Source: Erodium maritimum
Lineage: Eukaryota > Streptophyta > Magnoliopsida > Geraniales > Geraniaceae
DNA: 64,000 bases
Assembly (NCBI GenBank): GCA_963921825.1
Contig: OY997592.1
Location: 25,771,730-25,835,729 of the forward strand
Reading direction: 5' to 3'
Shown piece after piece: positions 500 to 61,645 of this stretch (within the stretch, counting starts at the first letter, position 1; every line of letters begins with the position of its first letter). Below the pieces are notes generated by a model. That model did no database searches. It was not told the DNA's origin and worked only from the letters and a program-made list of their open reading frames with translations. A program made the position numbers and the translations under genes.

Positions 500-1590
500 C
501 TCGTAGGCCTACCTGCGGAACGGTTTGTAGATCCATCACTCAACGGCCAGTCTCGGCCCAGATGTTCCAACTGTTTGCTCGAGGGCAAACATTGCCACCG
601 GGGCAGGTCCAACAGACGCTACTACCCCAACCCGTCGTGTCTCACCGGACTGGGCATGTGGCTGCAAGAATCCTGAGGTCCTCTGCCTCCACGGATTGCG
701 ACTCTCTGACGGCCTCAAGAAGCCATTCGGCCTCGGCCTGGTCTTCCGCGCCTTGGCGGTTTCTCAAAATGTCTCTCTAATGCTAGTGTCTGTTCCAATA
801 GTACAAAATAGTCCTCGGATCTGAATGCAATGACTCAATCCGTGATAGACGGAATGAGCCATTTCTCAACATGCCTGCGGCGGTTCTCCTCGGTCTGCAC
901 CATCTCGGCGCGAAGCGAGATGGGGACGTGAACCTCGTCTCATACTCAGAGACGGTCATCCCTTTCTACCGTAGATCCAAAAACTGCTGGTGTCAGTCAT
1001 CTCGAACAGATCGAGGGAAATATTGTCCCAGGGACAGTCTGCTGAACAGCTGAAAGCCATCTCCAATCATGGTCTGCACATGTTGCCACCAGTATCATGT
1101 TTCTCCCTCAGTTGAAAGGTCGCGAAAAATGTTCTCAAACGACTATCAGAATACTCTAAAAGTATTAAGGTTGCGGGTAATCCGCTCCAACCATACTACA
1201 ACTGCCTCAGGGTCTGAACCTCCGGAATAGATAGGTGTACCCAACCTACGAAAATTTATGAGGCCCTGGGCCGTGTAGCTATCCATCTGGCCTGGCATCT
1301 CGGTAGTGACTGCGTCGGTAGTAGGCACGGACTCTGGTGCCGGTGCTGTAGTCTCTTGCTGAGCGCTGCGAGTACTACGCGAACCACCTCATCAATAGGG
1401 GCCGCCTGAGTCGGCTCTGCGACTGGAGGAACTCTAGGTGGTGACCCTGTCAGTCTATTCTCAAAACTCTGGTGCTCTGTGGAAGCAGCACCCTGGGCGC
1501 TCGCTGCCCCTGCCAGACCAACAGCTGGTGTCTGGCTCTGCCCCATAGCTGGGCGGCTCCTGGTATCCCTCGGGATATAAACACGTGACA
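500..1590 (-). pseudogene. Degenerate Gypsy gag
   Basis: Scattered frames match the gag at 16,165-17,229. Near 1,560 there is an N-terminal stretch of the type YIPRDTRSRPA. At 1,146-1,328 there is a block containing YTAQGLINFRRLGTP and DPEAVVVWLERITRNL, the head of the capsid region. At 536-718 there is the basic linker before the nucleocapsid. The zinc-knuckle position (about 545-600) keeps only the first Cys and the His: the second Cys is Ser and the last is Trp, so it could not bind zinc. Frames change between blocks and the central capsid helices are not recognisable. It cannot make a working Gag. Confidence 0.7.
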
Positions 1591-1779
1591 TCTCGTATAC
1601 TCGCTGCATTTATAACATATAGGTTCATATCTCAGCTTAACACAATCGGTTCAATTCATCATGTCATGACGTTCTCATGCGTCTCATATGGATCCCACTT
1701 GGATCGATAGTAAGTAGTATAGTCATATATAATATTTATATAGACAAAGAATTCCGCACCTTGTGCATCTCACAACATC

Positions 1780-1855
1780 AATCAAGTATTGCAATCCAGC
1801 AAGTAGTTCAATCAAGCAAGTAGTGCAATCAAGCAAGTAGTGCAGTCAACTCCCA
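1780..1855. repeat. Short tandem repeat in the leader
   Basis: About four copies of an 18-bp unit of the form CAATCAAGCAAGTAGTG lie in the non-coding leader of the first Gypsy element. Confidence 0.7.
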
Positions 1856-2846
1856 CAGGAGGTATAACTTCAAACAATTGCACACTCAACATACCGGACC
1901 GGTGTCTACCTCGGTCGGATATCTTCCCATCACGTGGGGTTCAAATCATAACACCTCAGTTCCACAATTCATATCCTTAGTTCCTTTCTCACGAGTCTCA
2001 ACTCTTTCCATAATTCTCAACACCTTACTTTCTCTTATACACTCATGTCGATATCGCGTCGTTACAACCCGATTCAGGCGTCCCCGAATCCCGTTGTAAC
2101 CACTTGACATCCCTCTATCACGCTCGACTACAGTGGCGCCCCTGAGTCAGCCCGTGATAGTGCAAACACTTCACTTTCACAGAAATTTCGGCATGACCCG
2201 TTCGTATTTTCCACTAACCCTCCGCTTAAGCGGGACATCCAACCATCAATTTCACACAATACTTATCGCATCAGGTTCCCTCAATCATCAAAGTGCACTC
2301 CATAGTAAAATACCGCAATACCACTCGGGTTTCTACCCTTTATTCAATTGACATCCAACTGGATCATCATTCCAACTTTAATCCTTAAATAACGGTCAAC
2401 ATTTTAACCAAGTCAACACTTTAACAATTTAACACTTCAATAAGTCAAGAATTCAACACTTCAACAAGTCAATCATGGAACGAATCAACCAAGGCGGTAA
2501 CACACTCAACAAATGATTTACTCAACAACCAATTTGTAACGACTCGATCATTGCTCGTTAACCCAATACCGATCTCAACTGTTCGGCTTTACCGATCACT
2601 GTAACTCACAACCAATAGGGCAAGGATACCAATCAAGCAATGCAACCATCGTAGTATAAAAGTTTCAAACTCAAACAAACATTGAAACAATCAAGACTCG
2701 TGTCGTTCTAACTCTACGCCTCAACTGTTTTCAGCTTGCGTCACGGAGTATCACAAATAGACGACCTAACTCTACCCACCTAATTGACGTCGGTCCGAGG
2801 TTATGAAACCAAGTTCAAAATGAAAACCAGTTTCAAATGAAACCAG

Positions 2847-2858: not shown

Positions 2859-3779
2859 AATTGTCACTCCCCAAATCCGGTTTTGGCCAGACTCGAGACG
2901 TGACTTGAGTTGACAATAAAGTAATAAAAAAAGGATAGTAAAATTGATTAAATACACAAGAGGTTCCGATAAAAGTACTCGAATAACATGTTCCAAATCA
3001 TAATTGGGAGTCAAGGCTCCATAAAGAGTACGTAAAAACAAAGGGTTCACTATAGTGACCAAAAGGACGTCTCTAAGATCATACTGCCCAGACTCTACAG
3101 AAGCTCCCGAGCCTCGGGTCCACTACTAAACAAGCACGCCTGTATAAACAGTAAATCAAACAGATAGGGGTGAGCTTACACTCAGTAGGGAAAATAGATA
3201 AACAGTTTAACCTCCAATTTAGTAATAAAGTAGCTTTAGCATGACAACACAGATTGCAATTAATACTTTTAATCAAAATGATGTTATAACATAGGCAAGA
3301 TAAGAACAATATCACATTCTTAAGGATAACGGTCTTTAAGTTTAACAAATAGAAATTCACAATTTCGTTCGGGCCTCAATGATACGGAGAACTAAGAAGA
3401 TGTTGAAATACGGGAATAAAACGGGTATTTAACGCTTTCAAAGATCCAGTAACAATCATAGAAAATAAAGTAAACAATGCATTTATTAACAATCAATAGA
3501 AGATAGAGCGTTTAAGTAATGCCGTGGGACATGAAGTCACCACCCTCCGATCCACAATACTCTTGTGTCATGTCGGATCCCATACTCTGATCCACCAGAG
3601 TGTTCGTGTCATATCAGATTTTCCCTCGGTCTAGAGGAGGCACATACATCGGGTTACCGGTAACAATCCCTGAGGGGCGCTTATCGTCGGGATTCTCGGA
3701 TGTGCCACCAAAGGACCATATGTCATAGGGAACCAAGGTAATGCTCCCGCAGGACGCATACACTCGGGTGAATCAATAA

Positions 3780-4260
3780 ATAAACTTTCCCCGCAGGGTA
3801 AACCATCCAATTGCCCCGTAGGGTCTAGTAATCAATTCCCCGCAAGGTCCAACAATACCCCACACCGGAATCCTCCACGGTGTAGGTCCGATAACCAATG
3901 CCCCGCAGTGTCCAACAATACCCCACACCGGAATCTTCCACGGTGTAGGTCCAACAAGCAATGCCCCGCAAGGTAAACCATTCCCCACACCGGAATCCTC
4001 AACGGTGTGGGTACCATACCAGATCACCAATAATCATGCCCGTAAACCATCCCCACACCGGAATCCTCAACGGTGTGGGTACCACAACCAATATCCCGCA
4101 GGATTAACGAATCAATGACCCGCAAGGTCCACAACCAATATCCCGCAGGATTAACCAATCAATGCCCCGTAGGGTCCACAACCAATATCCCGCAGGATCA
4201 ACCAATCAATGCCCCCTATGGTCCTCTAATCAATATCCCGTAGGATTAACCAAACACAAG
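3780..4260. repeat. Imperfect tandem array in the LTR
   Basis: Degenerate units of about 30-65 bp combine CCCGCA(G/A)GG(T/A) with CCCCACACCGGAATCCT and the hairpin arm CGGTGTAGG. The whole array lies inside the candidate LTR intron. The young element's LTR carries the same motif as CCCTGCGGGGCATTGG near 42,240. Confidence 0.75.
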
Positions 4261-4429
4261 AGACCAACAGGTCGACACATTGCACAATCAAACTTAGAAG
4301 TTCATGAATTCACCAATACACACCACAAGGGATTCATACCCACAATCACACTTACCATCATACTTACCAACCACGTTCCATCGGTCCATCGATCACCTGA
4401 TCGTACCATTTGGCACAATCAGTCATACT

Positions 4430-4556
4430 CGATAATCCGTTCAATCATTCAATCACTCAAGCATCCAATCATTCATTCAAGCATTCAATCAATCATTCAA
4501 GCATTCAATCAATCATTCGATCATTCAAGCATTCATTCAATCATGCAATTTATCTA
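4430..4556. repeat. Simple tandem repeat CATTCAAT / CATTCAAG
   Basis: A run of 8-12-bp units (AATCATTCAAGCATTC type) lies within the LTR. The corresponding place in the solo LTR (about 61,210-61,335) has similar but shorter ATCAATCATTC sequence. Confidence 0.8.
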
Positions 4557-6107
4557 GTTTCGTTAGACCCTTAATTCATCTTAAACTAAGCAAACAATGC
4601 ATGTGAGGCACACACAACTAATTCGAGGGCTCATCACGGCCTCTCTACCAGTAAAGCAATTTCCCAAGTATTGAAAGCGAGTTAACTAGTTGTTCACATC
4701 ATATGCATGCATACTAGACACGTCCGATTATTAGTAATTGAAAGACGATTATTCTAGTTATTCGCGTCCTATATGCAATTCTAGGACATTTTCGATTTTA
4801 TTAACCTAATAGGCATACTAAGTATTGAATTACACGAGGAGTTTAGTACTTTCCCTACCTTGTGGTCTTCCTCTAATAATCCTTTTAGTTGTTGACGACC
4901 GGGCCAACTCCGATTCTCGGGCGAAGTCCAAGTGTGGGTTTTTAAACAGGCAAACGGTCCAATCAGTTCTTAAGTGTCCAAAATCCTTGGAACGTCTCAA
5001 ACGTCTTTAAATTAACAATTTTAAGTCAATTTCATTAATTAATTAATTACTTAATTATGCGACCAGGATCCGACCCGGATCTGACCCGGATCCAGGCCCA
5101 AACCGGACCCAGACCCGAATCCAACTGACCCGGTCCCAGACCCGGACCCGGAACCAAGCCTGACCCGAGCCTGACCGGATCCAGGTCCATCCTGGGCCTG
5201 CTCGGTCTCAAGGCCCGCACTCACATTGGGCCAAGGCATGTTCTGTTTGCCGGCCCAAGCCCCAACCACAAGGCCCAAGGCCCGTCCCTTTCGCGTCTGA
5301 GCAGGATCCAACTCCGGCACGCTCACCTTTTCCGGCCACCGTCAACGGCGTCAGCTACGCTCGAAGAGGGGAAGAACCGGGCGGCGAAGGCGGTTGGCAT
5401 CACAACGAGGTCGTGGCTGTGACGGCGGGGCTCCAGCGTGCGTCCCGCTCGCCTCCGCCACAGATCTGACGAACCAGCCACTTGCCGACGGTGGTTCCGT
5501 CTGAAATAGCTCGAATCGAGCTCGGGCGAAGCGAATCTGGGTAAGAAGTTGTCGGGGAAGAAGGATGAGGGTGTGAGGGAGCTCGAACAGCTCGATTACG
5601 TTGCTGGAGCGCTCGATTTCAGCTCGGAGAGGACGGATCTGAGGGAAATTCCGGCGTCGTCTCTTCGTGTGCGTGGGCTTGGTGGTACTCTGAAGGGACG
5701 AAGAGGAGAGGTGAGGCGAGGTTTCAGGGTGGAGGAGGAAGGAGGAGAAGCAGAAGAAAGGTGGGGTGTGGCCTGAGGAAGGACGGCGGCGACCGTCCGG
5801 TTCGGCTGCACGCGAGAGAGAAGGGAGAGAGTGAGGGAGACGAGAGAAGACAGGAACCCTAGTTCCTGTAGTGAGTTCCGCGTGCGAGTCGCGCGTGCGA
5901 GGGAAGGGCTGACTACGTGTGGCTTTGGTCCTGCGACTGGGCCTGGTTCAGTTAAATTGGCCATGTCTGGTTGGCCCAAAAGTCTCTTTCCCTCTTTGTT
6001 TTTTTTTTATTTCTTTTTTTTTGTAATCGATCCAATAATCGACTCACTCCCCAACTCGACGATGTTCCCACCGATAAATTATCGAAATGAAAATTTAGGT
6101 CTTTACA

Positions 6108-13938: not shown

Positions 13939-15008
13939 GTAGGGAAAGTAGCGAATACCAGTTTAATTGCGGAAAGTTACTAGCATGCTTTTAGAATAAT
14001 AATAACCGAAAAAGCTCTAGTTCACATATAGAATGTGGTTCACTAGAATAACCGATTTCAATTACATTAATAACCGGATGAGTCCTAGTTGACATATAAG
14101 ATGTGATTCACTAATTTAACTGCTTTCAATTCTGGGAAATTGTCGTGCTGATAGAATGGCCATGCCGAGCCTTAGATTGTGTGCTGATTGAAATGCCATG
14201 ATCTTTGATTGAGATGCATGATGTGTGACTTAATGTCGATAAGATTAAGAATCATGTTATGATGTACTCGGTGTAACATGTTGTGACTATGTGTGGGCAA
14301 GTGTGACGTGTTTGATGTGATGTGAATCTTTGGTTGTGATATGATCGGGTGAGTGATAGACCGATTGGTGTGTTATGGTGAGTTGGCTCGGTTGGTATAC
14401 CGTGGTCGAACTATGGCATTGTGATGCGTGTTACGCTCTTGATGTGTGTTCCAAGAGAAGTTGTGTCCGGTATGATACCAACACTGAGAGAGTATGTCGG
14501 TGTAGAGTATCGAGGACGAGGACGGTTTAACCATTACCCCGATGCTATGTGGTCCGGGAAGGCGTACGACCGAGGTATGTTCCGGTCCGTTATGCTTGAG
14601 GCCTCGAGTGTACGTGACGGGAAGACGTCCGACTGAGGGATTTCCGGTCTGGGATGTTACCCCGAGTCTACGTGAAGGGAAGATGTCGGGACCGATGCTC
14701 AGTGTTCCGGTGCGATATAAATGGGACGGTCTGTGATAGCCGATGATGTTGGGAACGGTTGTACTAAGTTATGTGTTGTTCTACTGTGTGTTCTGTGCGT
14801 GCTGGTTGGCTTTGTGCGTTGTTTTATTTGTGATTGTGGTCTGCGAGAGTGATTGGTGGTTGGTACTTGTCCCGTGGGCGTTGTTGATAGTTATGTGTTG
14901 CTAGTATGCCTTAATTGGACGGTTACTCGTGGTGGTGAACTGATGTTCATAACCTTAACTACTTTTTCTACTAAGCGAAAGCTCACCCCTTACCTTGTTG
15001 TGTTTCAG
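13939..15008 (+). other. Candidate intron inside the LTR
   Basis: Donor TTTTGAG|GTAGGGAAAG. The acceptor comes after AAGCGAAAGCTCACCCC, a T-rich tract and TGTTTCAG|GT. Length 1,070 bp. The acceptor also survives in LTR copy 3 at about 17,546. Confidence 0.5.
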
Positions 15009-15282: not shown

Positions 15283-16164
15283 CTGGTTGCATTTTGAAAT
15301 CGTTTTTCAAAACCTCGAACCGTACGTCAATTAGGTGGGTAGAGTTGGGTCGTTAAGTTACCGTGTGTCGGTCACGCAAGTCGGAGATGTCCTACGCGTA
15401 GAAATGAGACGGAGAGAGTCTCGGGTTGGTCGTTGTCCGGTCTAAGTACTGTGTGACTTTGGTGAACCTGTGTGGTTGGTTTCATTGTTGAGTTAAACTG
15501 TTTTCCGAGTGTGAACTTGGTCGGGCGGTAAGAGTGAAATTACCGAGACCGAGTTGTATGGCTGAGATAACTTGCTGTGTGTTGTAATTGTGTTTGAGTG
15601 TTGTGTGCAGGTTGTGATTGGTTGTCCCGCATAAGCGGATGGTTAGTGTAAATTACGAATAGGTCATGCCCGATTTTCTGCAAAAAATTGAAGTGTATGT
15701 ACCATCACGATTCAGCTATAGGGGCCACTGTAGCTGGACGTGAATGGGGGGGATGCCAAGTGGGTACGACGTAATTTGGGGACGCCTGAACCAGGTTGTA
15801 ACGACGCGGTGTCAACATGAATGTTATGTTAGAAAGACGACGTGTTAAGAACGTGAAACTAAGGCTATGTTATACTTTGTGGAATTGCTTTGTGATATAA
15901 ACTGTAGTCTGTGTGACTTATGTGTGAAATTGTTGTTGAGTGTGAAACTATGTGTAACGTCGTTAATTGAGTGTATGATCTATGTGACGCACTAGTGTGC
16001 AGACTTCTCTGCTGAGTGCAATTGTGTGACGATACTATACTGAGTATATTATTACTATGAGTACTAGTGCGGTGGACTGTGTGTAACGTTAGTTAACTTA
16101 AGCGCGTCGTTCTTTAAGAGTAAGAAACTGAACATGTGCGTTATCCGTGCAGAGGATTTACGAC
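15283..16164 (+). other. Gypsy untranslated leader
   Basis: Non-coding. It contains a block (about 15,660-15,830) conserved in four Gypsy leaders of the window: GGCCACTGTAGCTGGACGTGA, then GGGGACGCCTGAACCAGGTT. Such leaders usually carry packaging and dimerisation signals; that role is inferred. Confidence 0.7.
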
Positions 16165-17229: not shown

Positions 17230-17805
17230 CCGATGCTCAGTGTTCCGGTACGATATAAATGGGACGGTCTGTGATAGCCGGTGATGTTGGGAACGGTTGT
17301 ACTAAGTTATGTGTTGTTCTACTGTGTGTTATGTGCGTGCTGGTTGGCTATGTGCGTTGTTTTATTTGTGATTGTGGTCTGCGCGAGTGATTGGTGGTTG
17401 GTACTTGTCCCGTGAGTGTTGTTGATAGTTATTCTTTGCTAGTATGCCCTAATTGGATGGTTACTCGTGGTGGTGAACTGATGTTCATAACCTTAACTAC
17501 TTTTTCTACTGAGCGAAAGCTCACCCCTTACCTTGTTGTGTTTCAGGTATTGAGCGGGATTTGTACTAGCTGGATGCTCGATGCTTGGGAGCTAGTGAGG
17601 GTCCTAGGCTAGCTTGTCCAGAGACGTGCTGTTATTTTGAACTGAACCTTTATTTACAGTGTTTTATGAGCTGTTGACTCATTTTATTGGAGTTATGGAT
17701 TTCAGAATAGTACTTTTAAAACTTATAACCGTTGAAATTGCTTTATTTATTATTTCTTTAAGTTCACGTCTCGAGTCCGGTCAAAACTGGATTTGGGGCG
17801 TGACA
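17230..17805 (+). repeat. Gypsy LTR, last 576 bp (LTR copy 3)
   Basis: Colinear with 14,692-15,267 with the same length and few substitutions, starting at CCGATGCTCAG, which is directly fused to gag. Ends GGGGCGTGACA. It includes the acceptor-like CAG|GT of the candidate LTR intron. Confidence 0.92.
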
Positions 17806-37459: not shown

Positions 37460-38336
37460 TGTCACGCCCCGAATTCAGTTGGACCGAACCCGGAACGCGA
37501 ACGGTGAAACAATAAAATAATTTTCAAACATTTTAATAAAACCGCTTAAAAACACCACTTTGAGTTAATCAAAATAATATTTTACAACTTAAAATACGTC
37601 CAAAACAAGCGGACAAAAACCGAAGCGTACGTCGCTAAACTCCCAAAAACCCGGACTCCCGCTCCCAGCTCTTCAAGCTTCGAGAGTTCCCCTAGTCCGC
37701 CTCGCGACCAGTACCTGTAGGAAAAGCAGCTAGGGGTGAGCGTTTCGCTCACCACCACGGATACCAGACTGACTACGACATACTAGCAGAAAGTGCCGGA
37801 AACACCAACAACAGACAAAACACCGAGGACTACTATCCCCAAACTCAAGTAACCCGACTGCCACACGAAAACTGCTACTTTCCCCAACCAACTCAAACCC
37901 GGACGCGTAATGTAGACCCGACACAGCGGTTACAACCTCAACCCAAAACGCAACTAATAACCACGCAACACCCAAGACCACAAAGGATCGCACATAACAA
38001 TCAAGATCGCAAAGGATCGCACTCCAGCTACTCAGTGCCGGTTGCTAACCGGCTGGGCTTGAGCCTGCCCCACACAACTTTACCCGACACTCAATCGGGC
38101 TAGGCGGTCGACCTGTTAGCGATATGTACAACAATACTTTTTCGATACCTAGTCGGAAGGGGAGCCGCCCTTCATCGCCGAAGAAATGCACAACTTTACC
38201 GATGGTTAGTCGGAAGGCTAGCCAACCCCCACGCCCGCGACCAGAAGATCCATTTTCTGTCAGGCGGGCCCCAACCTCCATGCAACCACAGTCATCACCC
38301 AAGGTTCAACAAATAGCGACAATAATACACGACTCA

Positions 38337-38565
38337 CCAGCAGTAAAATGCGGGTTCAACACCCCAAAGGCACTCATGGCCACCCACAACACACCAACAG
38401 TAAAATACGGGTTCAACACCCCAAAGGCACTCATGGCCACCCACGACACACCAATAGTAAAATACGGGTTCAACACCCCAAAGGCACTCATGGCCACCCA
38501 CGACACACCAACAGTAAAATACGGGTTCAACACCGCAAAGGCACTCATAGCCACCCTCATAAACA
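38337..38565. repeat. 57-bp tandem repeat in the LTR, about 4 units
   Basis: Unit includes AAATACGGGTTCAACACCCC and AAGGCACTCATGGCCACCCA. The unit length is a multiple of three, so frames stay open across the array on both strands. This explains the long but meaningless open frames there. Confidence 0.95.
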
Positions 38566-38604
38566 CAACAGGTTACTTAACCTACGGGCACAACCAAAAG
38601 CCAC

Positions 38605-38770
38605 CAGTATTTCTATTGTTCGATACGTTCACGTATCCTACGACACTACTAAGTGTCGCCTGCATTTCTATTGTTCGATACGTTCACGTATCCTACGACA
38701 CTACTAAGTGTCGCCTGCATTTCTACTGTTCGATAAATTTACTTATCCTACGACACCACTAGGTGTCACA
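38605..38770. repeat. About 63-bp tandem repeat with two hairpins per unit, 3 units
   Basis: Each unit has GATACGTTCACGTATC and GACACTACTAAGTGTC, both short perfect inverted repeats, separated by CTAC. The third unit has drifted in the first hairpin. Confidence 0.9.
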
Positions 38771-40377
38771 TGCATTTCTACTGTTAACTTTCCCTAGTCA
38801 AGACCGAGATCCGGCTACTTTTCCCTACCTCGTAATGCTTCCACAAAAGTCCACGCCCAAGCTCCGGCGTGCTCGCGATTACTCGCCTAGCTTGCCCTTT
38901 CCGTGGTCGGCGGCACGATCTAACAAGAACACAATTAAAGCACTTTTTAAGTTTGCAGGCAAAGCTGAATTTTAATAAACTTGACGCGCAAATGCAACCC
39001 CGACAATGTCGATCACTCCCAAACTTCCCAATTACTCGACATTGTCAATAACGGGCCCGGAAGGGCCCGATTCGCCCGGCTCGACGAATCTGCCCGGGAT
39101 TGGAAAACGCCCTTCCGGGGCTCCGAAAATTCCCGTTTTCGTTTCTACGATCTTAAAATAATTCAAGGGTTCCAATGCAATCGACGGAATAAATTTCCGA
39201 CTTCCGAGCGATTTAATTCGCGTTTCAAGTTTCTAAACCCGAAATTTCCAACTTTCACAATTTAATTCCATAATTCGATCCTGGTGTGAATTATCGATTC
39301 GGGGATCGTCCAAAACCACCCGAACACGAAAAACCCGAGACCCGACACGTGGGCCCCACCCGGCCACCACTAGCCGCGGGTGGCTGGACCGGTTCGCCAC
39401 AGTGGTGGCCGGTCCTAGCTCCGGCCAGCCACCACCCACGGTGGCCGGAGCTCCCCCGAGCCTCCGGTCACCGGAATCCGATCATTTTTACCCCAAAACG
39501 TTCCCAACGAATCCTACACCTCAACTCATTCATATTTAACCCGTTTAAACACAAACCCTAACTTTCAAACATACCAAAACGAGAATCAAATAGGTTCTCA
39601 GCGTAGGGAATGACGATGGGAGCTCGATTCTTCAACCGTTGAGACGATCCGTCGGTTGGATCGTCAGGAAATCGACAAACCTTAGACTTTTCTTCCTTTT
39701 TCTTTTTCCTTTTCTCTTTCTCTTCTTCTCTCTTCTTTCTCTCTCTATTTCTCCTTTTTTTTTGAATATGGCCGAACACCCATATGCTTCTTCCTTTTGT
39801 TTTGTTCAAAATTACCAACTACCATCACTTCTTCCTTTTGTTTTATTCAAAAATAACAACTACCACCACTTGTGTGACAAGTGGCAAGTGGGTCCCACCT
39901 TTTTAGAACATATCTTTGTAGATATTTTTCTGTCAGATTCGCGAAATTCGGCCGTTTCGGGTCCCGAACGGGCCCATTTTCCAAGAAATTACGAGATTTC
40001 ACGTGCTACAAGGAAACGGCTCAACTAAGACCGCTGTAACGACGACTAAGCTTTTTGGATACAAAACGGGCCTCAAACGGACCAAAACGTTGCTCGGTTG
40101 ACTTTTCCGGCAAAAAGTCAACCTCTCCCAAATTGGTCAAAAAGTTGCCCTGAGTCCCCCATGTAGAGCCCGCTTCTTTTAAGAGTGTAGTAAAGTGCAA
40201 TTTGGAAACGTCGAGGTGTGTTTTTGTAACAAATCATTTTTGAGAAGGAAAAATCAAATAAAAAAAAAGAAAAGAGGGGCAGCCGTTTGGGCCGAGCTTG
40301 GATCTGGGCCAGCTCTGGCCCATTCGCTTCAGCTGAGCAGCCCAGCTTACAAGCCCAACCCAGAACCGAAGCTCCTC

Positions 40378-40385
40378 TATAAATA
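40378..40385 (+). promoter_or_regulatory. TATA box of the young LTR
   Basis: TATAAATA, followed after 9 bp by AAACCCTA, a telo-box common near transcription starts of plant genes. The expected start is about 40,405-40,415, so U3 is only about 250 bp. The same sequence lies at 50,602 in the 3' LTR. Confidence 0.75.
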
Positions 40386-41434
40386 GGGGCCGAAACCCTA
40401 AAGAGGGTACTGTTCACGTCTGCGCCTCCGACCCTTCGTCTTCCTCTCGCTAGAATCCTCCCGAGCTCGCCGTCGAACATCTCCCAGCTCCGGCCGTTCG
40501 CCTCCGTCGAGCCCTCCACCACCGACCTCTTCTTCTTCTGCTTCGTCTCGGCAAAGCCCAAAACCCAGAGAACCCCTCTGCCCCGTCCTCCTTCTTCCTC
40601 GAGCCAAACGAACCGGCGCCGTCAACGGGAACCTCGGACTCGCCGTGAACGTCAGAAGCCATGGGTGTCCGTCTCGACCCTCCTCACGCCGCCCCTCTTC
40701 CTCCCTGCCCTCACCGCGCCTGAAATCGTCCTTCTCCGAGCCCGATTCGAACGAGTTCGGTCGGAACCCTCGCCGGCGACCTCGAACTCGCCAGATCTGA
40801 GACGAGGTCGGGTCTTGGGTCACGCCTGAGCCGTCGCCGAGAACCTGACGTTCATCCCCGCCCCTTCTTCCTCTCCGTTCGAACCTCTGCAGCGCCGTGG
40901 GTGGTGGCCGGAGAACGTTGGAGCTGCCGGAGCTGCCGAAGCTGGTTCCAGCCCAGAGACGAGACGGGACCAAGCCTCGGGCCAGCTCTGGTTTGGGCCA
41001 GACGAGTTTTGGGCCGAGTGGGCCTTGGGCCTGGGGAGAGATCTGGCCGGACAGAACAGAAAATGGGCTTTGGCCCATTGTGGACTCGGGCCTTGGGCCC
41101 ATTTGGACTTCAGGATCGGATCTGGACCGGGTTCGGGTTCGGATCCGAGTCTTTCGGACTGTTAACTGAAACCGTTTTAAAATCAGATTTAATTAATCGG
41201 TTTAACGAACTCAAGGTGAGACTTTGGACTGGGTAAATTGTGGCTAAATCAGAGAACCGTTGGACTGTTATCATTATTGATTTGGACATTTTATGTGTCA
41301 ACCTAGACGGGACTTCGCCCGAGAGCGAAGATGTTGGACCCGAGCTAGAAGAGCAAGGATCACGCCGGGACCCGAGTGAAGAACGGAGTAGTGACCACCG
41401 GGCCTCATCAAAGCGTTGAAAGCAAGACCTCGAG

Positions 41435-42987
41435 GTAGGGAAAGTCTTAATTACGTAATTAACACTTAGAATGCATGATTAGGATAATAAAATTGGAAAG
41501 GTCCTAGAATTGCCTATATGATGCGAATAACTAGAATAATCGTTTTTCAATTACTAACAATTGGATGAGTCTAGTATGCATGCTTAGGACGATGACAATT
41601 AGTGAAGTGTGCTTTCAATACTTGGAAACTTGATTTACTGGTAGAGAGGCGGTGAAGAGCTCTCGGATTAGTTGCTAGGTTCACATGCTTGATTGATTGT
41701 TGTCGGGTTAACTTAAGAGTCTAATGAAACTAGATTAGCTTGTCTTATCGAATGCCTATTTGTTCGTTCACATGATGATTGATTGGTTGAATGCATACTT
41801 GGTTGATTGAGTGTTTATGTTGATATAATTGTTGGTTGAACGGATGATCGAGTATGACTGGTTGTGCCAAAGGGGTACAATCAGGTGATCGATGTACCGA
41901 TGGTTGGTGACAGGTAAGTGTACGGTAAGTATGAAATGGTGTTGGTTGTCTGGGTTTTTAGATGAAAGTGTGTTCCGACGTGTGCTGCTTGATGGATGAA
42001 TGAAATGCTTGTTCCTTTATTCTTATTCTCGAATGTATGCTTGTTTATTGGTTTGTCTGTTTGTTTGCTTGGTTCGGTACTACAATGGGGGGGGGGGGGG
42101 GGGGGGGTAATCCGGTGCCGTTGTGGTGGTTGGAGTTGAACAGATACAGTGAGATTTGGACTGAGTTTAGAGCCTGAGTGTATTGGTTACTGGATATTAT
42201 GAGAGTTGAGTATTGGCAAATCCTGCGGGATATTCATTTGGTTATTGGACCCTGCGGGGCATTGGTTATTGGGCCTGCGGGCAATTGGACAGTTTACCCT
42301 ACGGGGAAATGATTACTTATGGTTTCACCCCAAGGAACTGCATCCCAGTGGGTGCACTACTTGGTTCCCTATGATATATGGTCCTTTGGAGGCATTTCTG
42401 GGAATCCCGATGATAAGCGCCCATTTGGGATTGTTTCCGGTGCCCCGACGCATGTGCTTCCTCTGGACCGAGGGAAAATCTGATATGATATGGGTAATCT
42501 GGTGGATCGGAATGTGGGAACCGAGGTGATCCCAGAATTTATCCATGGATCGGAGGCTTGAGAAAGCGAGTGGTTGGCAAGATATTGATTATTCCCATTT
42601 TTTTTACCATTATTGATCCGTTAAAGTATGTATTATGAACTTCTTTTAAGTTACTGTCAGCTTTGAAGAAGCGCTATTATTTCATCATAACGGATTCCAT
42701 AACATTTCTTTGCTTAATAGTATTTACTGGTTCCCAGTGTGATGGGTTTCTATTTTATTATAATGTCCTCCATCTATTCTCTGGGAAGTTATCGTTATCC
42801 TTGAGAATGCACTATTGATATTGTTACTTCTTATTTGTTTATTACATCCTTTGGTCTAAGGGTTTTAAATACTTTTGTGGCATCGAATCAAAACAGTTTT
42901 AATATTAAACTTGGAGACTAAGGTCATTTACGATTTTCCCTACTGAGCGTAAGCTCACCCCTATTTGTTTATTTATTGTGTGTACAG
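41435..42987 (+). other. Candidate intron inside the 5' LTR
   Basis: Donor CTCGAG|GTAGGGAAAG. The acceptor region is TGAGCGTAAGCTCACCCC, a T-rich tract and GTGTACAG|GT. Length 1,553 bp. It starts about 1 kb downstream of the TATA box and ends 262 bp before the LTR end, so it would be part of the transcribed leader. Confidence 0.55.
42087..42107 (+). repeat. G21 homopolymer
   Basis: An uninterrupted run of 21 G in the candidate LTR intron; 18 G in the 3' LTR (52,311-52,328). The solo LTR has an interrupted C-rich version at about 60,990-61,015. A sequencing-error source and a possible G-quadruplex. Confidence 0.9.
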
Positions 42988-43252
42988 GTATGCTTGAGAT
43001 TTGGGGGAATTCGAGGCTAGGGAGCTTCCGGATGTCTCGAAGATTGTATTAGAGATGTGTTGGTCCACATTGCTGAACTTTATTTACCTTTTGTTACTTA
43101 TCAAGTCTCGATATCTTTTTTTTATTTATTGAGAAATACTTTGGACTCGTTTTCAGTTGTAAAGGAAGTTATTTCAGTTTTACTACTTTTACCTCGTTTG
43201 TTCTAGGTCACGTCTCGAGTCCGGCCAAAACCGGATTTGGGGCGTGACAATT

Positions 43253-43264
43253 TGGTATCAGAGC
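43253..43264 (+). other. Primer-binding site, initiator Met tRNA
   Basis: TGGTATCAGAGC, perfect consensus, three bases after the 5' LTR end. Confidence 0.96.
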
Positions 43265-46200
43265 CTGGTTGCATTTGAAACAGGTGGTAATTTTCGAACC
43301 GTTTTCAAAAAAAAAAAACCTCGGACCAACGTCTTTTAGGTGGGTAGAGTTAGGAAGTCTAAGTCGAGTACTCAGTTATGCGGAGTCAAACACGTTGATG
43401 CATAAAGTAAGAACGACTCGATTTTTTACTGTTTATTTGGTTGCCCAATGTTGAACTCTTCTTGCTATAACGGTTGTGTCGCTTGAGTGATACCCCTACC
43501 TTATTAATTGTAAGATGCAGAGATCGGTGAAACCGATTGGTTGAGGTCGGTATTGGGTGAGCGAGCAATGACTGAACCGTTGTATGATACTTGTTGAGTA
43601 GATTGTTATTTGATTAAGTGCATTATCGATGTGATTGATTGTTTAGTGGTGTTAAAGCTGGAGGATTAATGGATGGGAATGTTGACGAAGTTAGGGATTG
43701 GATTTGTTAGGGTGGTACGGTCGAAAGGGATGTAATCGAAGAATGGAATTATGGAAGAATCGGATGGTTGTAATTTGGGAAATGGGTTGAGTGTTACATC
43801 AGTTATGGTAATTTGACTTATCTAAGATTTTGACCTTGGAGGGTGTGACCCAACTTGGGTGACTTTGAAAAGGAATCGAATTTGAGTAAGTGGGTACCCT
43901 CTGATTGCGTGTGTACTTGCGAAGCATGAAAGTCTCTGTGTTGATTGTGGTATGAACTGCAGAGCATGGGAACTCTTTGAGTATTATACTTCAGTAATTT
44001 TATTGATAATTGTCCCGTTTAAACAAGGGAGGGTTAGTGGAATATACGAATAGGTCATGCCGAATTTTCTGTAAAACTAAAATGTGGGTTCTATCACGGG
44101 TTGACTCAAGGGCGCCACTGTAGTCGAGCGTGATGTTTTGATGTCAAGTTGGTACAATGAGGTTCGGGGACGCCTGAATCAGATTGTAACAACATGAGGT
44201 CGACATGAAAATGTTGGGTCTCGAGGTAGGGTTGGAGATGAACCAACTCGCAGCGGAAAATCAATGAAAACCAAGAGACAATTAAAACCATGAAACAACT
44301 AACAAAGAATGGATTAACAAGAGAAAAATTCAGCACTAGTTCTTACCAAAACAAGAACACCGGTTAACGAATGATTGGCTTGAGTCTCCAAGACGCCTAC
44401 GTATCCACATGGGAATCAAAGCCACGTAGTTCTTCTCTTTGAGGACTCAAGAACACAAACATGGAGGTGGAAACTAGCCAAACCCGAAATGGCCATGGAA
44501 GAGGGAGAGAAAATGTGTTTCCTATTCTTGTCTTGTGTTTGTTATGTTGAAAAAAGATGACTTAAACATAACAAAACCCATACTTGTCCAACTAAAGGCA
44601 TGGGACAAGTATGGTGTCAAGTAAGGTGTAAATAGGACAAAGTATGGCAAGACAAGATTGGGTTAGGTGGTGAATCACCAACACCTTAATCCTTGTCTTG
44701 CTTACTTAGTACTAATTAATCAAGACTTGATTAATTAGTTCCATGGGCCTTGGTTGCATGGGCCTTTCATGGGCCTCTTGGAACATGGCCCGTGGCCATT
44801 TCCAACGAGGTCCCGTGATTCGCTCATCGCCTCCATGCCTTCCATACCGGAAATGTCCAACATTATCCGACGCGATCAATCCCAAGACTCCAAGCCTTGT
44901 CTCAATCTGTGAAGTCCTATTCACTTACGGGCACATGACCCAAAACCCAGTTTTGGTCATGTCCCGAGACAACTCCCTTTTGGCCATTCTCCATAAATGT
45001 GTCAATGAGTTTCATCCTCCGGTGTGACCCTTAGGTTTATGCATGTCAATAGATCAACGTAAAATCCCATTTTACTTGATCCTATTTAAGTGGCAACTAA
45101 CGAGACTTTAGTATTGCCTGACACTACATAACGAATCGACCCTGTCGATTCTAACCTTTCCGTCGTCCCTGTCATTATCCTTTTATCTCCGATATCCTGA
45201 TTGAGATAAGGCATAGAGCCGTCATCCTTATTATTCTCAATCACCGTTCCTTGATATGTGAGATGACTGAAGATATGATACCCAGTATCATGTGCATGGC
45301 CATGCTATTCTTCCAGTCACTCTCGATCAAGTGGCCGAGAACCGATATCTTTCCCATACCTTAGTATGAGGGATAAATCCCTTAGCCGTCTTTCGTGTCA
45401 CTCATGTAGCCCGTCCCCAAGCCAATCCTGGCCGTTATGGAAGCCCTGTTACGGACAACGTTAGGCTCAGGTCAAACTCAGTTGTTGACTACATAGCGAT
45501 CACAAAGACTCCTTGGTCTAAGGATACATGACAAGCTACAACACTGAATATGTTCATGACTTAATCTATGGCACATATTCAGGGCGGGTCGTCCAATATC
45601 ATGTCCCACATGATATCTATGATCAGACTCCGGAATCCCATTCCAATGACTAACAGAACGTAAGCCATAAAGAGCCATCTTTCATACTAGTCGCTTCTAG
45701 TGGAGCTTTGTTGACTAGGGACCCATCGAGTGTGATCTATCTCGATCTATGGTTCTATTCGCATGGTGGGCATAGATCAGAGCACACATCGATATATTAC
45801 TCCAACACATAAGTAATATAAAGCTGCTTTAATTTTATTGCTAACGATGATATATGCATTTGGACATTTAGGATTGAACTACGGGCACTAAGACTAACAG
45901 AAAATATTTGAGTAAAGGTTAAGAATTGGGAATTCATGGAAGGGAAGGACAGGTTAAGGGTGAGTTTTGGATTGAATGGTGTTAAGTACTAAACCTCTCT
46001 CTGTGAAAGGATACCCGAGCAAGGGGTATGCCTGTTGCGTGTGCTTTTGGGTAGTGTGCTTGAGTTTGAATCCTCCTGTAGGAGTGGATTTCTTTGACTT
46101 GGTTGAACCCTTCTGTGGGAGTTGATGGTTGATTGCTAAATCGCTGGTTGTTGATGTGTGACGCATAAGGATGCGAACTTGGATGCTATATTATATGAGT

Positions 46201-46480
46201 ATATATACATATCTACTAGTGTGAGGGGCGTATCTGTGGGTGACTTGTGAGATGCGCGTGTACGTTCTTGAACTTGATCGAACCTTTGTTTGGGGTGAGA
46301 CGCACGAGGTGCGGGTTCTCGTTTGTGTAAGTGTTACGTTTGACCTTACAACTTACTTTTGGTCCAAGTGGGACCCGGTGGAGACGCACGAGAATGTCAT
46401 GTTGTGGTGAACCGAACCGTTTGGGGTAAACTGATTTGTGAACCTATAGTTGCTAAAGGTAATGAGATGGCGAGTTGTCT
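43265..46480 (+). other. Leader of the young element (contains a solo LTR)
   Basis: Non-coding. At 44,040-44,205 it carries the conserved leader block (GGCGCCACTGTAGTCGAGCG, later GGGGACGCCTGAATCAGATT). It is interrupted at 44,212-45,899. The remainder to 46,480 is TG-rich without features. Confidence 0.7.
44212..45899 (-). mobile_element. Copia-type solo LTR
   Basis: 1,688 bp. On the minus strand it begins TGTTAGTCTTAGTGCCCGTA and ends TCGAGACCCAACA, with TTTTCCGCTGCGAGTTGG near its end. These are typical of plant Copia LTRs. It is flanked by the duplication GAAAA (44,207-44,211 and 45,900-45,904). No internal Copia sequence remains, so LTR-LTR recombination removed the rest. Confidence 0.88.
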
Positions 46481-47190
46481 CGTGTTGTATCCGAGAGAGT
46501 ACCAAGAGCCGTCCAGTGGTGGGGCAGAGCCAGATACCAGCTATCGTTCTGGCAGGGGCAGTGAGCGCCCAGGGAGCTACTCCCACAGAACACGAGCGTT
46601 TTGGGAATAGACCGGTAGGGTCATAATCTAAAGTTCCTCCAGCAGAGCCGACTCAAGTGGCTTGATTGAGGAGGTGGTTCGCGGGGTGTTAGATGCGCTC
46701 ATCATGAGAGTACAACGCCAGCACAAGAGTCTGTGCCTACCGCCGACGCAGTCACTACCGAGATGCCAAGCCAGATGGATGGTTACACGGCCCAGACACT
46801 CAGGAGTTTCCTTCAGTTGAGTGCACCAGTTTGATCCGGGAAGTTGGACCCCGAGACAGTTGTATTATGGTTGGAGTGGAGTACCCACAACCTTAGTACG
46901 TTTATAGTATTCGGTTATTCGTTGGAGATTTTGTTCCGCGACCCCCGACTGAGAGAGAAGCACAGTTTTAGTGGCAGTGTGTGCAGACCAGATTTGGAAA
47001 TGGCTTCCACCCGTTCAGCGGACTGTCCTTGGGACGGTATGTCCTTTGATCTAATCGAGATGACCGACACCAACAGTTTTGGATCTACATTGGGACGGGA
47101 TGACCGTCTTTGGGTATTAAACGAGGTTCATGTCCCCGTATCGCTTCGCACCCGGGATGGTACCGATCGAGAAGAGCCGTCGTAGGCATT
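46480..47190 (+). pseudogene. Gag remnant of the young element
   Basis: Broken frames recall gag. A YTAQTLRSF-like stretch lies near 46,785, and DPETVVLWLEWSTHNLSTF near 46,850 matches DPEA..WLxRITRNL of related gags. The capsid core and the zinc knuckle are not recognisable. Two stops and shifts lie in the first 400 bp, so no Gag can be made. Confidence 0.6.
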
Positions 47191-50100: not shown

Positions 50101-50349
50101 CTACTGAGTTTCATCGCGGAATCAGATATTTCTAAGAATGAGCCTGACGAAGGCCTAAGCGGATCGACAACGATAGAGGCAAGTTGGCCCCGCGAGTTTT
50201 GTACTTTTGAGATCTTCAGAGAGAGCCAGAACCGTTGCCTGACAACTCCTTCGTGTTCCCGAATTACGGAAGCACACCGCTGCTCCCTCACAGATGAGCC
50301 GTGATCGAATGTTCCTTGAGTTTTGGGCAAAGAGGAACACGAGCGAGTT
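47191..50349 (+). other. Non-coding interior of the young element
   Basis: I could not find protease, reverse transcriptase, RNase H or integrase motifs in any frame over 3.1 kb. Frames above 100 codons are rare and unrelated to pol. 47,550-47,750 is shared with the first element of the window (bases 1-200, inverted). Confidence 0.7.
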
Positions 50350-50386: not shown

Positions 50387-53300
50387 TGTAGAGCCCGCTT
50401 CTTTTAAGAGTGTAGTAAAGTGCAATTTGGAAACGTCGAGGTGTGTTTTTGTAACAAATCATTTTTGAGAAGGAAAAATCAAATAAAAAAAAGAAAAGAG
50501 GGGCAGCCGTTTGGGCCGAGCTTGGATCTGGGCCAGCTCTGGCCCATTCGCTTCAGCTGAGCAGCCCAGCTTACAAGCCCAACCCAGAACCGAAGCTCCT
50601 CTATAAATAGGGGCCGAAACCCTAAAGAGGGTACTGTTCACGTCTGCGCCTCCGACCCTTCGTCTTCCTCTCGCTAGAATCCTCCCGAGCTCGCCGTCGA
50701 ACATCTCCCAGCTCCAGCCGTTCGCCTCCGTCGAGCCCTCCACCACCGGCCTCTTCTTCTTCTGCTTCGTCTCGGCAAAGCCCAAAACCCAGAGAACCCC
50801 TCTGCCCCGTCCTCCTTCTTCCTCGAGCCAAACGAACCGGCGCCGTCAACGGGAACCTCGGACTCGCCGTGAACGTCAGAAGCCATGGGTGTCCGTCTCG
50901 ACCCTCCTCACGCCGCCCCTCTTCCTCCCTGCCCTCACCGCGCCTGAAATCGTCCTTCTCCGAGCCCGATTCGAACGAGTTCGGTCGGAACCCTCGCCGG
51001 CGACCTCGAACTCGCCAGATCTGAGACGAGGTCGGGTCTTGGGTCACGCCTGAGCCGTCGCCGAGAACCTGACGTTCATCCCCGCCCCTTCTTCCTCTCC
51101 GTTCGAACCTCTGCAGCGCCGTGGGTGGTGGCCGGAGAACGTTGGAGCTGCCGGAGCTGCCGAAGCTGGTTCCAGCCCAGAGACGAGACGGGACCAAGCC
51201 TCGGGCCAGCTCTGGTTTGGGCCAGACGAGTTTTGGGCCGAGTGGGCCTTGGGCCTGGGGAGAGATCTGGCCGGACAGAACAGAAAATGGGCTTTGGCCC
51301 ATTGTGGACTCGGGCCTTGGGCCCATTTGGACTTCAGGATCGGATCTGGACCGGGTTCGGGTTCGGATCCGAGTCTTTCGGACTGTTAACTGAAACCGTT
51401 TTAAAATCAGATTTAATTAATCGGTTTAACGAACTCAAGGTGAGACTTTGGACTGGGTAAATTGTGGCTAAATCAGAGAACCGTTGGACTGTTATCATTA
51501 TTGATTTGGACATTTTATGTGTCAACCTAGACGAGACTTCGCCCGAGAGCGAAGATGTTGGACCCGAGCTAGAAGAGCAAGGATCACGCCGGGACCCGAG
51601 TGAAGAACGGAGTAGTGACCACCGGGCCTCATCAAAGCGTTGAAAGCAAGACCTCGAGGTAGGGAAAGTCTTAATTACGTAATTAACACTTAGAATGCAT
51701 GATTAGGATAATAAAATTGGAAAGGTCCTAGAATTGCCTATATGATGCGAATAACTAGAATAATCGTTTTTCAATTACTAACAATTGGATGAGTCTAGTA
51801 TGCATGCTTAGGACGATGACAATTAGTGAAGTGTGCTTTCAATACTTGGAAACTTGATTTACTGGTAGAGAGGCGGTGAAGAGCTCTCGGATTAGTTGCT
51901 AGGTTCACATGCTTGATTGATTGTTGTCGGGTTAACTTAAGAGTCTAATGAAACTAGATTAGCTTGTCTTATCGAATGCCTATTTGTTCGTTCACATGAT
52001 GATTGATTGGTTGAATGCATACTTGGTTGATTGAGTGTTTATGTTGATATAATTGTTGGTTGAACGGATGATCGAGTATGACTGGTTGTGCCAAAGGGGT
52101 ACAATCAGGTGATCGATGTACCGATGGTTGGTGACAGGTAAGTGTACGGTAAGTATGAAATGGTGTTGGTTGTCTGGGTTTTTAGATGAAAGTGTGTTCC
52201 GACGTGTGCTGCTTGATGGATGAATGAAATGCTTGTTCCTTTATTCTTATTCTCGAATGTATGCTTGTTTATTGGTTTGTCTGTTTGTTTGCTTGGTTCG
52301 GTACTACAATGGGGGGGGGGGGGGGGGGTAATCCGGTGCCGTTGTGGTGGTTGGAGTTGAACAGATACAGTGAGATTTGGACTGAGTTTAGAGCCTGAGT
52401 GTATTGGTTACTGGATATTATGAGAGTTGAGTATTGGCAAATCCTGCGGGATATTCATTTGGTTATTGGACCCTGCGGGGCATTGGTTATTGGGCCTGCG
52501 GGCAATTGGACAGTTTACCCTACGGGGAAATGATTACTTATGGTTTCACCCCAAGGAACTGCATCCCAGTGGGTGCACTACTTGGTTCCCTATGATATAT
52601 GGTCCTTTGGAGGCATTTCTGGGAATCCCGATGATAAGCGCCCATTTGGGATTGTTTCCGGTGCCCCGACGCATGTGCTTCCTCTGGACCGAGGGAAAAT
52701 CTGATATGATATGGGTAATCTGGTGGATCGGAATGTGGGAACCGAGGTGATCCCAGAATTTATCCATGGATCGGAGGCTTGAGAAAGCGAGTGGTTGGCA
52801 AGATATTGATTATTCCCATTTTTTTTACCATTATTGATCCGTTAAAGTATGTATTATGAACTTCTTTTAAGTTACTGTCAGCTTTGAAGAAGCGCTATTA
52901 TTTCATCATAACGGATTCCATAACATTTCTTTGCTTAATAGTATTTACTGGTTCCCAGTGTGATGGGTTTCTATTTTATTATAATGTCCTCCATCTATTC
53001 TCTGGGAAGTTATCGTTATCCTTGAGAATGCACTATTGATATTGTTACTTCTTATTTGTTTATTACATCCTTTGGTCTAAGGGTTTTAAATACTTTTGTG
53101 GCATCGAATCAAAACAGTTTTAATATTAAACTTGGAGACTAAGGTCATTTACGATTTTCCCTACTGAGCGTAAGCTCACCCCTATTTGTTTATTTATTGT
53201 GTGTACAGGTATGCTTGAGATTTGGGGGAATTCGAGGCTAGGGAGCTTCCGGATGTCTCGAAGATTGTATTAGAGATGTGTTGGTCCACATTGCTGAACT

Positions 53301-58330: not shown

Positions 58331-58671
58331 TTTCTCCCTTCATCATAAAATCTCATTTTTGACATCACGTAGTTACAACCCGGTCCACGCGTCCCCGAAC
58401 TGCATTGTACCCACTTGATGTCAGCACCGTCGCGTTCGACCACAGGGGCGCCCCTTAGTCGAGTCACGACAGCTTAAAAACGTTTCACGCAGCAGCACAC
58501 AATCAGTATGCCAGTAATAGCAATACTGCACATACACACAACAACAAATAGACTCAAGTCACTACGAGTCTACACACGGTTTTCGACTTGTGCAACCATC
58601 GCACGACAGGACTTTTAAAGACTCAACTCTCCCCACCTAATTGACGTACAGTCCGAGGTGTGAAACCTCGA
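58331..58671 (-). other. Leader of the outer Gypsy element
   Basis: Holds the conserved leader block (58,370-58,470): GGGGACGCG, TGACATCAAGTGGG and GGGGCGCCCCTGTGGTCGAA in element sense. Confidence 0.7.
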
Positions 58672-60183: not shown

Positions 60184-61645
60184 CTGTAAAACAGTAAGAA
60201 AACTAAAGGGGATGAGCTTACGCTCAGTAAGAAATACCTTAACAATTTAACCCTTAGATCAATACTGTACCGTGCAACAGATAACTCAAATAACAACCAA
60301 AACGACCAACAATGAAATAATATGTAACAAGATAGAATAAGATAAGTACGATGAAATAATATATATAAACAAGATAGAATAAGATAAGCTCGTACTCTTG
60401 AAAATAATATTGACTTGAAGGTTCCATAACAGAATAAACATAAAGTACCATAACGATTAAATGGGAGTAATTGATATCGCGCCAACCACTTGCTTTCGCA
60501 AGCCTCCAATCCATGAATAGATTCTAGTGTCACCTCGGTTCCCATATTCCGATCTACTAGAGTATTCATATCACATCAGATTTTCCCTCGATCCAGAGGA
60601 GGCACATACATCGGAGCACCGGAAACCATCCCATAGGGATGTTCATCGTCGGGGTTCTCGAAAGTGTCTCCAAAGAACCATAAGTCATAGGGAACCAAGG
60701 TAGTGCTCCCGTAGGACGTCCACCCTTGGGTGAAACCTCAGTAACCAACTCTCATGAAGGAATCCACTCAATATCCCGCAGGATCTGCCGAGCTCTCAGG
60801 CTCCAATAATCACTCAATAATCACTCAATATCCCGTAGGATCTGCCGAGCTCTCAGGCTCCAATAATCACTCAATTATAACTCAATATCCCGTAGGATCT
60901 GCCGAGCTCTCAGGCTCCAATAATCACTCAATAACTACTCAATATCTCGCTGTCTCTGTCAAACTCCAACCACCACAACGGCACCGGATTACCCACCCCA
61001 CCCCCCCACCCCCCCGGTGTAGTACCGAACCAAACAAACAAGCATTCAAGAATAATAATAATAATGAAAATGAATTATAATCTAACCAACCATAAACACT
61101 CCTCAAGGCACACTTTCATCACAGCAAAAACATCCAATAACACTCCACACTTACCGTATACTTACCTGTCACGAACCAGCGGTACATCGATCACCTGATT
61201 GTACCCCTTTGGCACAATCAGTCATACTCGATCATCCGTTCAATCAACAATTATATCAACACAATCACTCAACCAATAAAGTAAGCATTCAATCCATCAA
61301 CAATCATGTGAACGATCAATTAAGCATTCAATCATACAAGCTAACTAGTTTCATTAGACTCTTAGTTTATCCTAATAACTAGCAACCAAGCATGTGAACC
61401 TAGCACACAACTAATCCGAGAGCTCTTCACAGCCTCTCTACCAGTAAATCAATTCCCAAGTATTGAAAGCGAGTTACACTAGTCATCTTCATCCTAAGCA
61501 TGCATCCTAGACTCATCCAATTATTAGTAATTGAAATACGATTATTCTAGTTATTCGCATCTTATAGTCAATTCTAGGACCTTTCCAATTTTATTAACCT
61601 AACATGCATACTAAGCGTTAAATAAGAAATTAAGACTTTCCCTAC
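60184..61645 (-). other. Candidate intron inside the solo LTR
   Basis: Minus strand CACAAG|GTAGGGAAAG starts at 61,645. TGAGCGTAAGCTCATCCCC, a pyrimidine-rich tract and GTTTTACAG|GT end at 60,184. Length 1,462 bp. Confidence 0.5.
60765..60950. repeat. About 62-bp tandem repeat in the solo LTR, 3 units
   Basis: Units contain CTCAATATCCCG(C/T)AGGATC and TGCCGAGCTCTCAGGCTCCA; the unit start corresponds to the CCCGCAGG arrays of the other LTRs. Confidence 0.9.

Follow-up and report, generated by a model that had tools for sequence, protein, structure and literature searches.

Certain Ty3/gypsy retrotransposons of Erodium maritimum carry, in the leader ahead of gag, two adjacent units that resemble spliceosomal introns, the first (1.0-1.85 kb) lying wholly within the long terminal repeat (LTR) and the second (about 0.8-1.2 kb) lying between the primer-binding site and gag. 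We studied them in a stretch of 64,000 nt (the window; contig OY997592.1, here C5, from position 25,771,730 onward) of a host genome of 763 Mb in 40 contigs, in which five LTR types, A to E, are present. Because the splice-like units adjoin each other, show the composition of plant introns, would take most upstream ATGs with them and, in the case of the second, end 10-12 nt before gag, we regard a retrovirus-like leader with two introns as the best reading of these elements, and a probable one. The sequence strongly supports the intron reading of the LTR unit; a second intron before gag is probable. A preliminary description of this DNA had proposed the LTR intron, for which support at sequence level is good, and had overlooked the pairing of the intron ends, a conserved block inside the intron and the second unit. 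New here are this pairing, the second unit, a leader hairpin with a palindromic loop and the absence of any match to the intron-less junctions searched for.

The elements were assigned to Ty3/gypsy by a Gypsy-type reverse transcriptase-RNase H and an integrase with a Tf2-1-like SH3 domain: RT_RNaseH, RVT_1 (slightly below the cut-off), SH3_Tf2-1 and Retrotrans_gag matched in fragments of different window elements. The Chromo domain had no match in the one integrase fragment scanned, and the clade is presumably Tekay/Del (chromovirus). An Rfam scan of the window gave nothing at gathering thresholds. The donor word AGGTARGGAAA occurs seven times in the window against 0.13 expected from dinucleotide shuffles, and the hairpin TGAGCGNAAGCTCAYCCC (up to three mismatches) six times against 0.15, the variant hairpin of family C, TGAGCGAAACGCTCACCCC, standing outside this count. 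By motif position, all five junctions proposed earlier (41,434/42,988; 13,938/15,009; 4,859/3,139; 38,829/37,714; 61,646/60,183) are exact, and further copies were found in a partial 3' LTR of B (hairpin at 17,510) and in C, whose donor at 63,224 is parted from its acceptor by a nested insertion; the copy in the 3' LTR of D, with its donor at 51,657 and its hairpin at 53,165, had been mentioned as a partner only. Genome-wide, with reversed patterns as controls, the exact hairpin 18-mer was found 5,635 times (control 0), the donor with its exon end, GACCNCNAG/GTAGGGAAA (a slash marks the splice boundary), 4,642 times (control 0), and the acceptor with its exon start, TACAG/GN..GAGGCTNGGGA, 2,864 times (control 4). 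The hairpin word had no match in viral contigs, and a protein scan of these contigs likewise gave none, its query being a Copia fragment and hence uninformative for the present elements.

Intron 1 was examined in 43 copies, namely window copies A, D and E and 40 LTR copies fetched by means of the hairpin 18-mer in two batches of 20 from the first part of contig C1, taken from the 100 listed of the 5,635 genome places; families B and C were read within the window only. The donor motif lies 600-2,600 nt upstream of the hairpin in 35 copies, which form 16 clusters by shared sequence, some of them related, and 29 of the 35 also have YAG/G no more than 42 nt from the hairpin (L020 among them, displaced). 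As to the earlier claim that every Gypsy LTR bears the unit, the hairpin was present in 55 of 57 LTR-end matches of the DNA examined, the other two not being LTR ends; this rate is biased, since the hairpin had guided the choice of most of that DNA and parts of it overlap. The window copies of intron 1 and their surroundings are as follows.

40378..40385 (+): TATA box, 1,057 nt upstream of donor 1 in LTR D
41435..42987 (+): LTR D, intron 1 between donor AG/GTAGGGAAAG and acceptor TACAG/GT
42944..42961 (+): GTAA-loop hairpin of LTR D, TGAGC-GTAA-GCTCA, whose 3' arm contains the candidate branch site CTCAC
51659..53208 (+): element D, intron 1 of the 3' LTR
3140..4858 (-): intron 1 of LTR A, 1,719 nt, 49 ATG
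13939..15008 (+): intron 1 of LTR B, 1,070 nt, 40 ATG
17510..17546 (+): partial 3' LTR of B, hairpin with acceptor 1
37715..38828 (-): intron 1 of LTR C, with a helix partner at 37,717-37,730 between hairpin and AG
60184..61645 (-): intron 1 of LTR E

The unit has GT-AG ends with an exonic AG before the donor, the donor consensus of U2-type introns being present in the 35 motif-selected copies, and it measures 1,032-1,853 nt (median 1,410; 29 copies). With 100 nt of exon 1 and 50 nt of exon 2 taken as flanks, the interior gains 12.7 points in U and the flanks 12.1 points in GC, each in 29/29 copies, which is slightly below the difference of about 15% given for plant introns in the BARE paper. 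At the donor itself T jumps from 18% in one 100-nt bin to 30% in the next (35 copies), and a U-rich interior between GC-richer exons, as in U2-type introns, was found for both units. ATGs are likewise unevenly spread, with 9.2 per kb in exon 1, 29.8 in intron 1 and 12.6 in exon 2 (29 copies), and exon 1 holds 267 of them against 339 expected. Group I and II self-splicing introns and U12 introns were set aside on the basis of their consensus ends.

At the far end, YAG/G follows the hairpin 18-mer at 19-27 nt in 33 of the 43 copies and at 37 nt in two. In L026 and L048 a long C-run directly behind the hairpin accounts for the spacing of 37 nt, and in L038 (3500-3560) the primer-binding site is joined straight behind the hairpin, the remaining LTR being lost, hence the displaced YAG/G of this copy. 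The 3' arm of the hairpin contains CTCAC, whose A lies 24-43 nt before exon 2 (median 30; n=29 including L020) and which, judged by the consensus, is a fair candidate branch site; if it is one, folding covers the branch site. The preliminary description had further placed the donor in the transcribed leader, about 1 kb after a TATA box. This is clear for the D-like copies only, since just three of the 35 (L011, L015 and window D) have a good TATA box some 1.06 kb upstream of the donor, next to a weaker one in L018; in L035 a TATA lies 1,570 nt upstream of the donor.

The two ends of intron 1 can pair with each other. The donor strand is complementary to the stretch just 5' of the hairpin over about 11-18 bp with covariation, comprising nine near-invariant pairs counted from the first intron base and a family-specific extension.

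41435..41452 (+): helix donor strand, LTR D
42924..42943 (+): helix partner strand, directly 5' of the hairpin, LTR D

When the 20 nt before the hairpin served as query against some 2,800 upstream positions, the donor ranked first in 31 of 35 copies and within the top five in 34, and the first rank in these 31 was obtained independently of the donor motif. At positions +10 to +18, the 16 cluster representatives form 116 pairs compared with a mean of 81 for permuted partners, a number reached in none of 20,000 permutations, which ignore relatedness. The matched duplex has an energy of -19.4 kcal/mol. Taking the partner of a copy whose donor sequence differs gives -15.7, a shuffled partner -8.3 and windows elsewhere in the intron -7.3, only 1 in 1,050 of these windows reaching as low. 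On the exon-2 tree, five pair-to-pair double changes fall at positions 11-14, and single changes at positions 1-10 kept the pair 15 times and broke it seven times. Non-Watson-Crick cells comprise 63 G-U, 11 A-C and 75 others; since mismatched controls also have more G-U than A-C, at about 2 to 1, the excess over them favours pairing of the sense RNA without proving it. Family C has its partner strand behind the hairpin, ahead of the AG; the arrangement is thus altered, yet the pairing is kept.

Between these ends the sequence had been described as strongly different, which fails as stated: the first ~250 nt of intron 1 are conserved between families far above exon 1. Among 938 ordered pairs of divergent copies, collinear similarity was found in 3-15% of pairs from -1000 to -100 in exon 1, in 29-44% adjoining the donor, in 65-82% over the first 250 nt of the intron and in 5-8% beyond 550 nt past the donor; it is 66-78% at the LTR end and 97-99% at the hairpin, whose own conservation cannot be judged from a sample picked by it. 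The conserved block (41470-41720 in window D and its equivalents) is built of repeats that contain TATGCATG and words resembling TAGGATGNGAATAACTAG, the former including the RY core TGCATG, a seed-type element. Local RNA structure is nearly absent from the block, with a consensus energy of only -0.7 kcal/mol and a small gain over shuffled columns (1/60 as low), and a reading as structured RNA was dropped on that energy. The block could be an enhancer or an RNA signal, two options that are not separable here. Intron 1 of family C also contains 57-bp tandem repeats, at 38214-38628 and 59514-59985, with four and five in-register copies of the 244-nt reference.

The second unit was studied in eleven leaders, those of A, B, C and D in the window and seven fetched ones with a primer-binding site; in L056, an eighth fetched leader, no such site was found.

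43251..43264 (+): primer-binding site, element D
43338..43351 (+): donor 2 of element D, TTTTAG/GTGGGTAGAGTT, GT at 43,340
1604..2779 (-): putative intron 2 of element A, 1,176 nt, 32 ATG, acceptor 12 nt before the gag ATG
1589..1591 (-): gag start codon, element A
15335..16152 (+): element B, putative intron 2 of 818 nt with 18 ATG; its acceptor precedes the gag ATG (16,165) by 12 nt
58625..58646 (-): donor 2 of element C

The patterns CGTCNWTTAG/GTGGG (expected 0.00) and CGTCNWTTAG/GTGGGKAGAGTT both describe donor 2 in all four window leaders and in L038; this donor is recognisable in 7/7 fetched leaders with a primer-binding site, in L049 and L053 without the exonic AG. In A, B, L050, L053 and L054 acceptor 2 is a TGCAG/ placed 12 nt upstream of the gag ATG, and in L049 it is a TGTAG/ at a distance of 10 nt, which makes 10-12 nt in six of the six leaders with the ATG placed; the gag start was not found in C and D, nor in the fetched pieces of L051, L052 and L055. 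TGCAG/CGAG..ATG occurs 111 times genome-wide (control 0). The second unit holds 18-32 ATGs in A, B, L049, L050 and L054, and from primer-binding site to donor 2 there is no ATG in any of the eleven leaders. GC content, determined for A and B only, is 41-44% inside and 50-59% after the unit. When 1 kb of exon 1 is counted, gag of A has 90 upstream ATGs, of which 9 would be left after removal of both units; the corresponding numbers for B are 79 and 21. With intron 1 alone removed, 41 would be left in A and 39 in B. No pairing of donor 2 with acceptor 2 was seen by eye.

Two elements with a donor 2 deserve a remark of their own. Element D (40162-53470) has LTRs that are 99.8% identical and no open reading frame above 167 amino acids touching its interior, and is a young copy without proteins of its own, probably moved by others. 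Element C has a C-like hairpin with an acceptor-like unit at 57200-57290 (-), including 57,244, about 140 nt before its protease fragment; the unit was read in three frames, and no gag was seen between it and the primer-binding site.

Downstream of donor 2, each of the eleven leaders has a hairpin with a two-part stem and a palindromic loop.

44092..44136 (+): leader hairpin of element D, GGCGCC loop; within 'intron 2' by analogy, no gag found
2114..2161 (-): palindromic-loop hairpin, putative intron 2 of element A
15704..15746 (+): palindromic-loop (GGCC) hairpin, putative intron 2 of element B
58427..58473 (-): element C (without a gag found), leader hairpin whose palindrome is GGGGCGCCCC

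The loop palindrome has four to ten bases, namely GGCGCC in eight leaders, GGCGCC extended to the ten-base GGGGCGCCCC in C, GGTACC in L053 and GGCC in B. In the alignment of all eleven hairpins 94% of cells are paired, compared with 15-43% in slid versions, and four pairs are changed on both sides, all in B or C, the covariation score being reached by none of 500 shuffles. Folded alone, the hairpins of B and C give z scores of -6.7 and -5.1. For C, D, L051, L052 and L055 the place of the hairpin inside intron 2 is by analogy, as the gag start is absent or outside the piece. A conserved stem with a palindromic loop in the leader is what characterises the dimerisation initiation site (DIS) of retroviruses, and by this likeness the hairpin may serve dimerisation. 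Loops that change and yet stay palindromic are typical of retroviral dimerisation sites. In the leaders of human immunodeficiency virus type 1 and murine leukaemia virus, DIS and the packaging signal psi, with a palindromic kissing-loop hairpin, lie between primer-binding site and gag; here, by contrast, the proposed acceptor parts hairpin and gag, and spliced RNA would carry all of gag-pol without the hairpin.

If splicing takes place, as we infer, removal of both introns would yield a gag-pol mRNA freed of most upstream ATGs, and the unspliced RNA, being the genome, would keep the conserved block of intron 1 and the palindromic-loop hairpin of intron 2 as likely marks of genomic RNA. The helix would pair donor 1 with the stretch beside the putative branch-site hairpin, hide this donor from the U1 small nuclear ribonucleoprotein and so set in part which RNA forms. 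Tentatively, and with somewhat more doubt than confidence, we suggest a structure-gated switch behind one promoter, in which open RNA is spliced twice into gag-pol mRNA and closed, whole RNA with its kissing loop becomes the genome.

Intron-less copies were sought in the genome by exact match, for exons ending in GACCNYNAG and exons starting with GAGGCTNGGGA or CGAG..ATG. The exon 1/exon 2 junction patterns gave 0 matches (reversed controls 0 and 1), and donor 2 joined to the pre-gag exon likewise gave none (control 0); the junction of donor 1 with the pre-gag acceptor was not searched. The fetched DNA also contains none, which has little weight in DNA chosen by the hairpin. These zeros suggest that spliced RNA, if made, rarely or never becomes new copies, and they agree with the earlier proposal that unspliced RNA is the genome.

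Several observations weigh against the two-intron leader. The lack of intron-less junctions also fits an absence of splicing. Donor 1, GTAGGG, is not the best of donors by comparison with the consensus GTAAGT, and the donor motif is missing in 8 of 43 copies, YAG/G being absent from the searched stretch in 6 of 43 and displaced in two; decay is the likely cause in these copies. ATGs are not depleted in exon 2 (88 seen, 95 expected), 16 remain in exon 1 of B, and a TATA box upstream of exon 1 was detected in few copies. As to the helix, whose permutation test leaves relatedness aside, 28 of the single changes at positions 11-18 broke a pair and 10 kept it; its outer part is thus loosely held or decaying in old copies. 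The leader hairpin folds weakly as a single sequence in A (z -2.2) and D (z -2.0), and its count of pair types, 10, compares with 9.0 in shuffles (67/500 as high). Finally, an enhancer acting as DNA is another possible reading of the block at the 5' end of intron 1.

One alternative is that there is no intron and that a conserved DNA or RNA element (enhancer block, structured leader or packaging signal) has splice-like ends by accident. Conservation of the 250 nt past the donor in 65-82% of divergent pairs, nearly without structure, as in protein-binding sites, would suit it, as would the missing intron-less junctions. Accident would have to produce, however, two units per leader with AG/GT and YAG ends and U-rich, ATG-dense interiors, the second ending 10-12 nt before gag in 6/6 cases, and gag would follow 79 (B) and 90 (A) upstream ATGs; we consider this explanation unlikely. 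Improbable, too, is the view that donor 1 is a real U1 site which acts chiefly as in foamy viruses, keeping the 5' LTR from being polyadenylated prematurely; in the 3' LTR the helix would hide it, and intron removal would be minor. Foamy viruses have their major donor within the LTR, ahead of the poly(A) signal, and here the donor is likewise in the LTR and pairable; but YAG/G at 19-27 nt, the U-rich interior and the ATG contrast are left unexplained, and donor and helix are present in both LTRs with no sequence difference seen that could do the switching.

Ribosome shunting past a closed loop of 1-1.85 kb, without any splicing, has very little probability in our view. A long stem does close an ATG-rich stretch here. 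Shunting, which is reported for caulimovirus leaders, needs a short open reading frame ending just before the stem, and 29 of 35 copies lack one ending between 80 nt before and 12 nt after the donor; AG/G at the far end would also be unaccounted for. Least credible is an origin of the pairing ends as terminal inverted repeats of an old DNA transposon in the ancestral LTR, as the inverted repeat GTAGGGAAA...TTTCCCTAC and the TGAG on both sides in some copies might suggest, since covariation between families, G-U 63 versus A-C 11 (controls about 2 to 1) and the changed order of parts in C point to a kept pairing of sense RNA.

Several known systems come close to the proposed two-intron leader. 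Ogre (Ty3/gypsy, Tat) is likewise a plant LTR retrotransposon with a spliceosomal intron and partly spliced RNA, but its intron lies between gag-pro and rt-rh-int, whereas both present units belong to the leader, one within the LTR and one ahead of gag, and neither has the Ogre position between the gag-pro and rt-int reading frames. In BARE1 and EVADE (Copia) and in CRR and Bagy2 (Gypsy), splicing likewise divides RNA pools between tasks, BARE having separate pools for translation and replication, which its authors call the first demonstration of distinct pools for any retrotransposon. The introns of these four elements lie at the end of gag or over protease or rt, or serve an env RNA, whereas here the coding region is untouched. 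Foamy viruses also have their major donor inside the LTR, as donor 1 is here, with access tied to RNA structure, and thereby offer a close precedent for a structure-gated donor. The present arrangement differs in that the acceptor is in the same LTR and the helix spans more than 1 kb. Foamy virus acceptors lie far downstream.

For plants, the available part of PMC7730604 describes splicing in sunflower elements and mentions no LTR intron, and PMC3059260 contains none of the splicing words sought. Among the matches listed from open-access literature, none was seen that describes an intron lying in a plant LTR or one in a chromovirus leader. In LTR retrotransposons it is an open question how a single transcript serves both as messenger and as genome. 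If splicing occurs, spliced RNA appears to be excluded from reverse transcription, and if the proposed switch is true, mRNA and genome would be different RNAs from one promoter. The two-intron leader, the pairable donor and the dimerisation-like hairpin give exact junctions and helix positions that can be tested. Speculatively, such LTRs may also lend a first exon, a donor and an acceptor to nearby genes, which could alter annotation.

Among the neighbours of these elements, Copia-type gag-pre-integrase and SH3 fragments (35604-37461, minus strand) adjoin LTR C.

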